Shown: piece by piece, positions 14,452 through 33,466 of the stretch
How positions within the stretch are numbered: the stretch's first letter is position 1
How the letters are laid out: each line of letters opens with the position of its first letter
Assembly: GCA_022574255.1 (NCBI GenBank)
Contig: JACZSK010000009.1
Span: 1 to 56,038, forward strand
Length of the DNA stretch: 56,038 bases
Direction of reading: 5' to 3'
DNA from: Pseudomonadota bacterium
GTDB taxonomy: Bacteria; Pseudomonadota; Alphaproteobacteria; Sphingomonadales; SMXR01
Notes under the pieces: model-generated
The model's database searches: none
Told to the model about the DNA's origin: nothing
Seen by the model: only the letters and a program-made list of their open reading frames with translations
Made by a program: the position numbers and the translations under genes

Positions 14452-17139
14452 TCAGCTTTCCGCCGCCAGCCGCCGCAGGACGTAATGCAGAATACCACCG
14501 TTGCGGTAATATTCGATCTCGTCCTCGGTATCGATCCGGCAGAGCAGTTTCAGATCAACATAATGCCCTTCTTCATAGGTTACGCGGCAATCCACATCCT
14601 GACCCGGCGACAGGCCTTCCGCGACACCGGTGATCTCGATCATTTCGTTACCCGTCAACTCAAGTCTCTCGCGTCCGAAACTCTCCTTGAACTGCAACGG
14701 CAGCACGCCCATCCCCACCAGATTTGAGCGGTGAATACGCTCGTAAGACTCGGCGATGACCGCCTTCACGCCCAAAAGCAACGTGCCCTTTGCGGCCCAG
14801 TCCCGTGACGATCCGGTGCCATATTCCTTGCCTGCTATGACCACCAGGGGAACCCCTTCCTCCTGGTATTTCATGGCGGCATCAAAAATCGACATGACTT
14901 CGCCGTCGGGCATATGCGCGGTCCAGCCGCCCTCGGTGCCGGGGGCCATGAGGTTGCGCAGCCGGATATTGGCGAAGGTGCCACGCATCATCACCTGATG
15001 ATTGCCGCGCCGCGAGCCGTAGGAGTTGAAGGCGCGTTCCGGAACCTGGTGCGCGATCAGATATTGGCCGGCCGGGGTATCGGCCTTGATGGCGCCGGCC
15101 GGCGAGATATGGTCGGTGGTGATCGAATCACCCAGCAACGCCAGAATCCGCGCCCCCTTGATGTCGCCCGGGGCCTCCGGCTCCATCGCCATATTCTCAA
15201 AATAAGGCGGGTGCTGGACATAGGTGCTGGTGTCGTCCCAGCCGTAGGTCAGGCCCTTGCTCGATTCGATGGCCTGCCAGGCCGCATCGCCGCTGAAAAC
15301 GTCGGCGTAACGCTCCTCGAACATTGAAGAAGTGACCGCCGATTGCACGATCTCGGCGACCTCGCGGTTGGTCGGCCAGATGTCTTTCAGATAGACCGGC
15401 GTGCCATCCTTGTCGGTTCCCAACGGCTCGGTGGTGATGTCGATCTTCAGCGATCCGGCGATGGCGTAGGCGACCACCAGCGGCGGTGAGGCCAGGTAGT
15501 TGGCGCGGATATCCTGGCCGATGCGGCCTTCGAAATTGCGGTTACCCGACAATACCGAGCAGCTGACCAGGTCATGTTCGTTGATCGCCGCCGAAATGGG
15601 TTCGGCGAGGGGTCCGGAATTGCCGATGCATGTGGTGCAGCCATAGCCCACCAGGTTAAACCCCAGCCCGTCCAGGGCGTCCTGCAGTCCGGCCTTGACC
15701 AGGTAATCGGTGACAACCTTCGAGCCCGGCGCCAGCGAGGTCTTGACCCAGGGTTTGACGCTCAGCCCCCTGGCCAAAGCGTTGCGCGCCACCAGCCCGG
15801 CGGCCAGCATAACGTTGGGGTTTGAGGTGTTGGTGCAGCTGGTGATGGCGGCAATCACGATATCGCCGTGGGAAAGTTCATAGTCCTCGCCCTCGACCGG
15901 GGCTGCTATGTCCTTGTCGGCGACCCGGAAGCCTGTGGCCAATTCCTTGTCGAAAGCGCTGGCGGCGGCAGACAGGGCAATCCGGTCCTGCGGGCGCTTG
16001 GGGCCGGATATACTCGGCTCGACGGTTCCGATATCCAGTTCCAGAACGTCGGTGAATATGGGGTCCGGGGTGTCCGCATCCCGCCATAATCCCTGTGCCC
16101 GGGCATAGGCTTCCGCCAGCGCCACGATATCGGCGTCGCGGCCGGTGAATTTGAGATATTCGATGGTCGCGGCATCGACCGGGAAGAAGCCACAGGTGGC
16201 GCCATATTCGGGCGCCATATTGGCGATTGTCGCCTGGTCGGCCAGCGACAAATCATCGACACCCGGACCGAAGAACTCGACAAATTTACCAACAACGCCC
16301 CTGGCGCGCAGCATCTCCACCACCGTAAGCACCATGTCGGTGGCGGTGGTGCCTTCGCGCATCCGTCCGGTCATCTTGAAGCCGATAACCTCAGGGATCA
16401 GCATGGAAATCGGCTGGCCGAGCATGGCCGCCTCGGCCTCTATGCCGCCGACGCCCCAGCCCAGCACGCCAAGGCCGTTGACCATGGTGGTGTGGCTGTC
16501 TGTGCCGACCAGCGTGTCGGGATAGGCCAGCGGCTTCTGGCCGTTTTGCGTGGTCCAGACGACCTTGGCCAGATATTCCAGATTGACCTGATGACAGATG
16601 CCGGTGCCCGGCGGCACCACGCGGAAATTATCGAAAGCCTGTTGTCCCCAACTGAGAAACGCATAGCGCTCCTGGTTACGCTCCATTTCGAACACAACAT
16701 TCTTGCCGAACGCCGCGGCGGTGCCGAAATGATCGACCATCACCGAATGATCGATCACCAGGTCGACCGGGACCAGCGGGTTTATCTTGCGCGCATCGCC
16801 GCCAAGTTTGACCATGGCGTCGCGCATGGCCGCCAGGTCGACAACCGCCGGCACGCCGGTAAAGTCCTGCATCAGAACCCGCGCCGGGCGAAAGGCAATT
16901 TCGTTCGATGAGCGCCTTTCCTCTTGCCAGTCGACAATGGCCTGAGCGTCGGCGACGGTGACCGTGGTGCCATCCTCGTGGCGCAGCATGTTTTCCAGCA
17001 GAACCTTCAGGGACATCGGCAGGCGGGATATATCGCCCAATTTCTCGGCCGCCTTCTCAAGCGAAAAATAATCGTAACTGCGTTCTCCGACTTCCAGGGT
17101 CTCGCGGGTTTTCAGGCTGTCTTTTCCGGTAGATGCCAC
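14452..17139 (-). CDS. acnA: aconitate hydratase AcnA
   Basis: 895 aa; [70 protein letters not shown]. Confidence 0.98.
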
Positions 17140-17390: not shown

Positions 17391-17687
17391 ATGATGCCGT
17401 TCCGCAATCTCGAAGCCCGCAGCCGCCGTGTCATAGGGTATGCCACGCTGGTATATGTTTTCACCGTGGCCCTGCTGCTGGTCTTTGCCCATGCCGCCCT
17501 GGCGGCCGCTGATCCGGCAGCACCAGCGGTTTCGCAGTCAAACACCGTTACCGCCGCCGCCTTCGAGGGTGGCGGTCTTTTTTTGGCCACCGAAGACCCC
17601 GCCCGCCTGCGCCCGGCGCCGCTGCAATCCAGCGAAGTCGATATTTACGTCAGCGGGATTTACGTCAGCGGGCTCGGGGCGCGGTAA
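17391..17687 (+). pseudogene. truncated N-terminal remnant resembling the class GN sortase target (signal peptide plus start of VIT-type domain)
   Basis: Signal peptide, then GLFLATEDPARLRPAPLQSSEVDIYVSGIYVSGLGAR, resembling the opening of marine proteobacterial sortase targets; stops after about 98 aa and overlaps the sortase start. Confidence 0.55.
17643..17672. repeat. perfect 15-bp in-frame tandem duplication ATTTACGTCAGCGGG x2
   Basis: 17643-17657 and 17658-17672 identical; encodes IYVSG twice. Confidence 0.95.
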
Positions 17688-18292
17688 TGGCGCGGGTCAC
17701 TCGTCTGGCGCGGGCGCGGAAGTGGGCCTGGCGCGGTCTTCTTCTCAGCCTGGCGCTGTTTGGCTTTGGCCAGATTGGCAGCGGGCTTTACATCCACGCC
17801 AAGGCCGCCTTCGCCCAGGAATTGCTGGAGAGAGCCTGGGGTGAGACGCTGGAGGGCGGTGCGTCGCACAAGGCCTGGTCATGGGCCGATACCTGGCCGG
17901 TGGCGCGGCTTGTTTTCCCCGGCCATGATGTTGATCTGGTGGTGCTGGAAGGGGCCAGCGGCGAGGCCCTGGCTTTCGGTCCGGGGCGCATGCCCGCTTT
18001 TGCGCGGCTGGGCAGGCCCGGCACGGCGATTATCGCGGCCCATCGCGATACACATTTCCGTTTCCTGGAAAAAGTGCAGACCGGCGACGCGTTCTGGATC
18101 GAGACCGCGGATGGCAAGCGCCATCACTACGTGGTCATCGATACGGTGGTGCTTGATTCGCGCAGTGCCTCGATCAGCGACGACCCGTCCGGCTCGACCC
18201 TGGTGCTGCTCACCTGCTATCCTTTCGATACGCTCTCGGTTGGCGGGCCACTGCGTTACCTGGTCTTTGCCGAGGGTGCGGGCAGCGTCTGA
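17687..18292 (+). CDS. class GN sortase
   Basis: N-terminal TM; AHRDTHFRFL catalytic His region and TLVLLTCYPFDTL catalytic Cys motif. Confidence 0.88.
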   Translation: MARVTRLARARKWAWRGLLLSLALFGFGQIGSGLYIHAKAAFAQELLERAWGETLEGGASHKAWSWADTWPVARLVFPGHDVDLVVLEGASGEALAFGPGRMPAFARLGRPGTAIIAAHRDTHFRFLEKVQTGDAFWIETADGKRHHYVVIDTVVLDSRSASISDDPSGSTLVLLTCYPFDTLSVGGPLRYLVFAEGAGSV

Positions 18293-18338: not shown

Positions 18339-19007
18339 ATGGCAGCAGAGCAAGCACAAATGGAGGCGCACAAGCTCACCCTCCAAGGGCGGGGGCTGGC
18401 CTGCGTCCGCTCGGGCCGACCTGTTTTCTCGGGGCTGGATTTCTCGCTTCACAGCGGCCAGGCACTGGTGCTCAGGGGGCCAAACGGCAGCGGCAAATCG
18501 ACCCTCCTGCGTCTGGTGGCCGGGCTGCTGGTGCCGGCTGCGGGCAGCATCCTCTGGTCGGATGCTTCCATCGCGGAAGATCCGGACGAATATCGCGCCA
18601 ATATCCATTATCTGGGTCACCAGACCGGCCTGAAGACAGCGCTTACGGTGGCCGAAAACATCGCCTTCTGGGCGCAGCTCTACGGGGTGGAGGCGGCGGT
18701 GGAGGAATCCTGCGCCCGCCTTGGTCTGGCCCGGATTGCCGATCTGCCTGTCAAATACCTGTCCCAGGGTCAACAGCGCCGCACGGCGCTGGCGCGGCTG
18801 GTGGCCATGCCGCTGCCATTGTGGCTGCTGGACGAGCCCAATGTTGGTCTGGACGACTTTTCCAACAAGGTTCTTCAGGATTTAATGGCCGAGCATCTGG
18901 CCTCCGGCGGCATGATCATGGCCGCCACCCATACTGAGTTGGGCATCGCCCATGCGGCGGTCCTGAACCTTCCGGGCGGGTCAATGCAAAATTCGGGAGC
19001 CCGGTGA
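18339..19007 (+). CDS. ccmA: heme exporter ATP-binding protein CcmA
   Basis: GPNGSGKSTLLRLVAGLL, LSQGQQRRTALARL, LLDEPNVGLD; followed by ccmB. Confidence 0.95.
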   Translation: MAAEQAQMEAHKLTLQGRGLACVRSGRPVFSGLDFSLHSGQALVLRGPNGSGKSTLLRLVAGLLVPAAGSILWSDASIAEDPDEYRANIHYLGHQTGLKTALTVAENIAFWAQLYGVEAAVEESCARLGLARIADLPVKYLSQGQQRRTALARLVAMPLPLWLLDEPNVGLDDFSNKVLQDLMAEHLASGGMIMAATHTELGIAHAAVLNLPGGSMQNSGAR

Positions 19008-19670
19008 ATGGCTTTCTTTGCCCTCATTGGCCGCGAAGTGCGTCTTGCCTGGCGGCAGGGAAATTCCAGCGCCATGGCGGTGACGTTTTTTCTCGTCGCC
19101 GTAACGCTGTTCCCCCTGGGCATCGGGCCTGAATTAAGCGTGCTGGCGCGAATCAGCGCCGGCGTCATCTGGGTGGCGGCATTGCTTTCGGCGCTCTTGA
19201 CCCTCGACCGTTTGTTTCAGCAAGACTTCGAGGACGGCTCGCTGGACCTGCTGGCTTTGGCGCCCATGCCCATGGAATTGATCGTGCTGGCGAAAAGCAT
19301 TGCCCACTGGCTGACCACCGGATTGCCGCTGGTTGTCGCCGCGCCCCTGCTGGCGGTGCTGTTGAATATGGACAGCGGCGGGCTGGGCATTCTGATGCTC
19401 TCGCTGGCCATCGGCACACCGGCGCTCAGCCTGACCGGGGCCATCGGCGCGGCGCTCACGGTCACCGTGCGGCGCGGCGGCGTGCTCATGCCGCTGCTGA
19501 TTTTGCCGCTCTATGTGCCGACGTTGATATTTGGCGTTGGTGCTGTCGATGCCGTGTTGAACAATATTGTCGCCGGCCCCAATCTCCTGTATCTGGGGGC
19601 GCTGTCGCTGGTGGCCCTGGCGTTGGCGCCATTTGCCGCTGCCGCGGCAATCAGGCTGGCGCTGGAGTAG
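19008..19670 (+). CDS. ccmB: heme exporter permease CcmB
   Basis: 220 aa membrane protein; FFLVAVTLFPLGIGPE, DRLFQQDFEDGSLDLL; operon position. Confidence 0.96.
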   Translation: MAFFALIGREVRLAWRQGNSSAMAVTFFLVAVTLFPLGIGPELSVLARISAGVIWVAALLSALLTLDRLFQQDFEDGSLDLLALAPMPMELIVLAKSIAHWLTTGLPLVVAAPLLAVLLNMDSGGLGILMLSLAIGTPALSLTGAIGAALTVTVRRGGVLMPLLILPLYVPTLIFGVGAVDAVLNNIVAGPNLLYLGALSLVALALAPFAAAAAIRLALE

Positions 19671-19767: not shown

Positions 19768-20565
19768 ATGATGCACAGGTTCGCCAACCCCACCCGCTTC
19801 GTGCGGCTCGCCGACAGAATGCTGCCCTGGCTCTTTATAGTGACCCTGGGGTCGTTCGCCGTGGGCCTCTATATGGCGCTGATCACCTCGCCGCCCGATT
19901 ATCAGCAGGGCGACAGTGTGCGCATCATGTATGTCCATGCGCCCAGCGCCTGGATGGGCCTGTTCGGTTACATGGTGCTGGCGGGCGCCAGCTTTGCCTC
20001 GCTGGTCTGGCGCCACCCGCTGGCCGATGCTGCCGCCAAAGCCTCAGCCCCCATCGGGGCCGCCTTCACCGGGCTGGCGCTGCTCACCGGCTCGCTCTGG
20101 GGCCAGCCCATGTGGGGCACCTGGTGGGTGTGGGACGCGCGGCTCACCTCCATGCTGGTGCTGTTCTTCCTCTATCTCGGCTATATGGCGCTGTGGTCGG
20201 CCATTGAAGACCGGCAGAAGGCCTCAAAGGCTGCGGCTATCCTGGCACTGGTCGGCGCCATCAACGTGCCTATTATCAAATTTTCCGTCGACTGGTGGAA
20301 CACCCTGCACCAACCGGCCAGCATCATGCGCCAGGGCGGCCCGTCGATGGACAGCGCCATGCTCTGGCCGCTGGGCATCATGTTCGTCGCGTTCAACGCT
20401 TACTATGCAATGGTTTTGATGTGGCGCATCAAGGCGGAGCTGGCGGCGCGGAAGATCGAGACATTGCGTTATAATCAGGCGGCGCGGCAAGAGGGGCCGG
20501 CTGCGCGGCAAGAGGGGCCGGCTGCCCGCCAAGAAGGACAGGCCGTGCTTGAGGAGGGATCATGA
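19768..20565 (+). CDS. ccmC: heme lyase/exporter CcmC with repeat-bearing C-terminus
   Basis: DSVRIMYVHAPSAWMG, WGQPMWGTWWVWDARLTS tryptophan-rich motif. Confidence 0.97.
   Translation: MMHRFANPTRFVRLADRMLPWLFIVTLGSFAVGLYMALITSPPDYQQGDSVRIMYVHAPSAWMGLFGYMVLAGASFASLVWRHPLADAAAKASAPIGAAFTGLALLTGSLWGQPMWGTWWVWDARLTSMLVLFFLYLGYMALWSAIEDRQKASKAAAILALVGAINVPIIKFSVDWWNTLHQPASIMRQGGPSMDSAMLWPLGIMFVAFNAYYAMVLMWRIKAELAARKIETLRYNQAARQEGPAARQEGPAARQEGQAVLEEGS
20479..20541. repeat. 21-bp in-frame tandem repeat x3 (AARQEGP) at the 3' end of ccmC
   Basis: 20479-20499, 20500-20520, 20521-20541; first two near-identical, third diverged. Confidence 0.93.
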
Positions 20566-32689: not shown

Positions 32690-33466
32690 ATGGCATTATC
32701 AATCAGACTGGCCCGGGCCGGAGCAAAAAAACGGCCCTTCTACCGGATCGTCGTTGCCGATTCGCGGATGCCCCGCGACGGGCGCTTTATCGAAAAACTG
32801 GGCACTTATAATCCCCTGCTGCCCAAGGACCACGCCGACCGGGTGACCCTGGTTCTCGACCGCATCAAATACTGGCTGGGCGAAGGTGCGCAGCCCTCGA
32901 CAAGGGTTGGACGTTTCCTGGCCGTAGCCGGGCTGACCAAGCTGAAGAAGCGGCACAACCCCGAGAAGGGCAAGCCGGGCACCAAGGCGCTGGAGCGCAT
33001 CGAGGCCAAGAAGGAAAAAATTGAGGCGGCTAAAATTGCTGCTGAAGAGGCGGCAAAAGCGCCAGTAGAGGAAAAGGCGCCTGCGGAGGAAAAAGCAGAG
33101 GAAGCCCCTGCTGAAGAGAAGCCCGCAGAGGAAACCAAGACCGAGGATAAGGCGGAAGAGAAAGCCGGAGAGAAGGCTGAAGCCAAGGCCGCCGACGAAA
33201 AATCAGAAGAGAAGCCTGCTGAGGAAGCAAAGTCGGACGCCAAGGCAGAAGCCAAGGCCGAGGATAAGGCCGAGGATAAGCCCGCAGAGGATGCGAAGGA
33301 AGAAGCCAAGGAAGAGGCCAAAGCCGAGGAAAAATCAGAAGAGAAGCCTGCTGAGGACTCGAAGGAGGACGCCAAAGCCGAGGACAAGGCTGACGAAAAA
33401 TCTGAGGATAAGCCTGCCGAAGAGGAAAAGGCGGAAAAGAAGGACGACGAAAAGGCCGCCAAGTAG
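32690..33466 (+). CDS. rpsP: 30S ribosomal protein S16 with very long acidic/lysine-rich C-terminal extension
   Basis: [42 protein letters not shown] core; then [21 protein letters not shown]-type tail to aa 258. Confidence 0.96.
33197..33357. repeat. 29-bp perfect direct repeat GAAAAATCAGAAGAGAAGCCTGCTGAGGA (33197-33225, 33329-33357) within rpsP tail
   Basis: Direct reading; 132-bp spacing, in frame. Confidence 0.92.

Follow-up and report, generated by a model that had tools for sequence, protein, structure and literature searches.

When a class GN sortase is found without the protein that it would be expected to process, it has to be asked what became of that protein and what, if anything, is left for the enzyme to do. 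Class GN sortases are poorly described, and their role in Gram-negative bacteria has been called unknown (PMC10581121). The window analysed here is the whole stretch of 56,038 nucleotides of contig C128, which belongs to a 3.07-Mb assembly (genome G000; 192 contigs, 94.6% complete). It carries such a sortase directly behind a short open reading frame (ORF) (Table 1). The initial annotation, made from the letters alone, offered three readings: an internal deletion of the target that orphaned the sortase, a target encoded elsewhere, or a new role for the short peptide.

Table 1. Coordinates of the sortase locus and its neighbours in the window.
Feature	Coordinates	Strand	Remarks
Aconitate hydratase (AcnA)	14452..17139	-	Divergent left neighbour and synteny anchor; assigned by identity to AcnA of relatives
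Putative sortase-target remnant, 98 aa, in frame	17391..17687	+	Signal peptide/first membrane segment and VIT start, then stop
Perfect 15-bp tandem duplication, ATTTACGTCAGCGGG x2, peptide IYVSG IYVSG	17643..17672	+	At the deletion junction
Codons LGAR and stop TAA	17673..17687	+	Probable leftover of the target 3' end, judged from position
Class GN sortase, 201 aa, intact	17687..18292	+	Assigned by TIGR03784, PF04203 and alignment
CcmA (haem exporter ATPase)	18339..19007	+	Right neighbour; assigned by identity to CcmA of relatives
CcmB	19008..19670	+	Right neighbour; 56-73% identity, equivalent position in relatives

The sortase scores 203.9 bits (E 1.3e-60) against TIGR03784, above the curated cut-off of 158.25, passes the Pfam Sortase model PF04203 (79.1 bits) and is the single sortase-family match in the G000 genome. 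Alignment with three relatives places the catalytic residues at His119, Cys177 and Arg190, within the motifs AAHRDTHF, LLTCYPF and PLRYLVF; all three align with those of the relatives, so that the conservation first noticed for the His and Cys motifs extends to the arginine. Identity stands at 52-58% to the relatives against 50-51% among the relatives themselves, with no excess change, and the protein is intact and without visible decay. The usual context of a class GN sortase, which lies outside the TIGR03784 model itself, is a full target alongside; here the upstream neighbour is the 98-aa ORF. A search of plasmid DNA gave no match, and the plasmid protein search returned distant sortases alone (<60% identity).

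The short ORF on its own has no match to TIGR03788 up to E 10 (cut-off 551.65 bits) and none in Pfam, hence no VIT or vWA domain is called. The missing TIGR03788 match is expected, because the model begins near residue 80 of the full target and covers the last ~10-18 residues of the short protein. Direct comparison is more informative: in a search against 61 related genomes, residues 1-89 match the N-termini of the full targets of genomes G003 and G004 (46-48% identity), the search itself giving 48% at E 1.4e-15 and 49% at E 1.5e-11, respectively, with unrelated best matches at E ~0.005 or worse. This likeness is well beyond chance. The proposal that the upstream ORF is the beginning of a sortase target is therefore upheld by the full-length proteins and not by the family model, and the possibility that it has no similarity to targets falls away. 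On this comparison, the ORF encodes the N-terminus of the protein with which the sortase is usually paired, the VIT/vWA "marine proteobacterial sortase target". Over 37 columns it shares 46% identity with the G003 and G004 targets, against 32-41% among the relatives, which makes it an undecayed remnant whose divergence is no more than expected. It includes one strong hydrophobic segment (Kyte-Doolittle ~2.2 near residue 19), and its C-terminus, IYVSGLGAR, shows no LPxTG-like motif, membrane helix or basic tail. Because the C-terminal sorting signal is gone, the remnant cannot be a substrate of the sortase.

What the locus would have looked like before is indicated by two genomes of the same family, in which a full target immediately precedes a class GN sortase. 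The targets (764 aa in G003 and 749 aa in G004) score 720 and 707 bits against TIGR03788, contain VIT and vWA domains and end in tails with LPQTAT and LPSTAT, respectively. The window and both genomes share the order divergent acnA, target, sortase, ccmA, ccmB, ccmC, and G019, from another family of the same order, has the same arrangement up to the end of its contig, which includes part of ccmB. The anchors agree with this synteny: AcnA is 70-77% identical to the proteins that adjoin this locus in G001, G003, G004, G005 and G019 and 74% identical to that of G013, and CcmA is 44-54% identical to the proteins beside the locus in the same five genomes. Elsewhere in the window, the end of ccmC includes a 21-bp tandem repeat (20478-20534) that codes for RQEGPAA-type repeats, and a long degenerate tandem array of 66/132-bp units (33191-33444) would be Glu/Lys/Ala-rich if coding.

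Relative to the full targets, ~660 codons (2.0 kb) are absent in frame. Homology to the targets stops at EVDIYVSG, within the first copy of the 15-bp duplication, which is the sole exact tandem of that size (15+15) in the window (TRF score 60); no repeat >15 bp occurs at the junction. The stop codon of the remnant overlaps the sortase start as TAATG, as the initial annotation had it for this ORF of about 98 aa. The same overlap is found in G003 and is thus ancestral, and its presence in both places argues that the 3' boundary of the target is probably original and that the ~660 codons were removed in frame.

The rarity of this state was assessed at two scales. In a survey of 385 genomes of the class (sortase threshold E 1e-20) the sortase is present in 42, and 41 of these have a target match, nearly always directly upstream, with G000 as the only exception. 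The view that class GN sortases normally sit beside their target holds in this sample, and the pairing is nearly obligate. Of the 80 sortases on GTDB contigs that are nearest to this one, 76 are preceded by the target and three stand where the contig ends; in the remaining one (L088) the region upstream is disrupted. No other short form of the target was seen among the 80 near relatives or the 42 surveyed genomes. In L088 (3339-3929, Nitrospira RSF8) the sortase is immediately preceded by a target tail of the LPKTG type, which is joined to unrelated sequence in antisense orientation that includes masked bases; a misjoin or rearrangement is likely. Another irregular module (G357:C1:2187218-2189567) has its target divided between two overlapping reading frames, and its sortase matches profile positions 4-101 only; the module is either frameshifted or affected by sequencing errors. 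Two genomes of the same order, G025 (locus L039) and G060 (locus L040), have no GN sortase match and encode a TIGR03788-like VIT/vWA protein (~460 bits). The tail of the L039 protein scores as PEP-CTERM (22.2 bits, cut-off 16), its sorting signal appearing, from this score, to have been swapped to the exosortase type, and L040 has a similar PEPG tail by eye.

Other states of the same locus give the change a direction. In G001 and G005, of the same family, acnA adjoins ccmA with neither target nor sortase between them. In G013, of the same order (L187 7061-7177), a sortase C-terminal scrap of ~40 aa, which lacks two residues just ahead of the Cys, is found near acnA and the target is absent; this scrap represents independent decay of the same module. 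The occurrence of intact pairs at the locus in two families, together with these loss states, suggests that an ancestral module has been lost repeatedly. The window is best read as one step in that loss, the target being the first of the two genes to go.

Whether the sortase might use a target encoded elsewhere was addressed across the G000 assembly, from which ~5% of the genome is missing. TIGR03788 has no match in this assembly, and a VIT domain is absent even when matches up to E 10 are admitted. When scanned with a profile made from the C-termini of 14 targets, four control genomes yield their known targets at E values from 5e-20 to 2e-14, and a fifth, G069, does so more weakly (E 0.003); in G000 nothing scores better than E 0.04, a match whose frame overlies a tRNA region. 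Sites coding for LPxTAT number 18, against 32 for a reversed-pattern control, and none of the 18 precedes a C-terminal membrane helix. The LPXTG_anchor model finds nothing above cut-off; its top match falls inside a histidine kinase, and the next one covers the N-terminal end of a different protein. The candidate sorting signals examined were out of frame, in the tRNA region or in membrane helices of other proteins (e.g., CcmF). None of these approaches therefore offers a candidate for a target elsewhere, and the suggested look for LPxTG-like substrates in the rest of the genome found none in the 94.6% complete assembly.

Taken together, the N-terminal match, the synteny, the kept overlap and the lack of a target elsewhere make a recent, real, in-frame internal deletion of the target, which orphaned the sortase, the probable explanation, in line with the first of the three initial readings. 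The ancestral locus would have been a two-gene module of a secreted VIT/vWA protein, ending in a signal of LPxTAT, membrane helix and basic tail, and a class GN sortase, which presumably cleaves this signal and transfers the protein to an acceptor. The in-frame loss would have taken nearly all of the target, including the sorting signal, and spared the promoter side, the start, the signal peptide, the stop codon and its overlap with the sortase start. Behind a short leader ORF, the sortase gene would still be translated, with no recognisable substrate, as a young and intact orphan in a lineage with repeated loss of the module; the enzyme is probably a relic that is being lost. That neither sortase nor remnant is over-diverged means either that the deletion is recent or that selection on the sortase persisted for another reason. 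We infer all three elements of this account, namely a real deletion in the organism, a functionless sortase and neutral loss.

The undecayed state of both genes could also mean a functional module that was wrongly assembled, or a remnant under selection. The former would require that a full-length target exists and that the contig skips it, as an assembly artefact or minority allele, for instance where the short duplication gave rise to a chimeric join. The deletion allele rests on one assembly, fragmented into 192 contigs, the exact duplication sits right at the junction, and L088, the one other near relative with no target, contains masked stretches and a residual LPKTG tail, which suggest a misjoin. 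However, the junction is in frame with the TAATG overlap kept, its repeat is no longer than 15 bp, shorter than the words on which de Bruijn assemblers join, and the missing segment occurs on no other contig; an artefact is accordingly unlikely. That the sortase still acts on some other substrate, unrecognised and encoded elsewhere, with the target dispensable, would fit the kept catalytic residues and the absence of accelerated change, but no LPxTAT-type or generic LPXTG-anchor signal rises above threshold in the genome and every other surveyed genome with the sortase has a target, which leaves such a substrate highly improbable. The 98-aa product could itself be functional, either as a peptide that is secreted or held in the membrane or as a leader whose translation is coupled to sortase expression, and this would suit its in-frame structure, strong hydrophobic segment and kept stop/start overlap. 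Yet the product lacks all functional domains and the sorting signal, the survey and the near relatives hold no second short form, and the overlap is ancestral, so that the new role envisaged for the peptide is barely credible. Re-use of the sortase and a role for the peptide are improbable even when taken together. A scenario that combines them, in which the sortase outlived its target and serves a substrate without an LPxTAT-type tail while the secreted remnant was kept as leader or partner, has a very low probability.

With internal deletion as the preferred reading, the case is a clean but ordinary one of stepwise gene loss and is biologically modest. That the target was lost first here, while some relatives have the complete pair and others lack both genes, suggests that the whole module is dispensable. 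The main use of the locus is as a natural target-deletion allele, in which it can be asked whether the sortase has any other substrate.

Compared with class GN sortases as defined by TIGR03784, the enzyme has the same length, N-terminal membrane helix and His/Cys/Arg motifs, and it likewise adjoins the position of the target gene; the difference lies in the partner, cut to 98 codons. Compared with the TIGR03788 target (VIT, vWA and LPxTG-like tail), the remnant shares the signal peptide region and the first VIT strand, in the equivalent locus and orientation, and lacks the ~660 codons for VIT, vWA and sorting signal. The intact modules of G003 (L017) and G004 (L016) share the acnA/target/sortase/ccmA/ccmB order with the window, and G003 also the TAATG overlap, whereas both retain full targets of 764 and 749 aa with their LPQTAT and LPSTAT tails.
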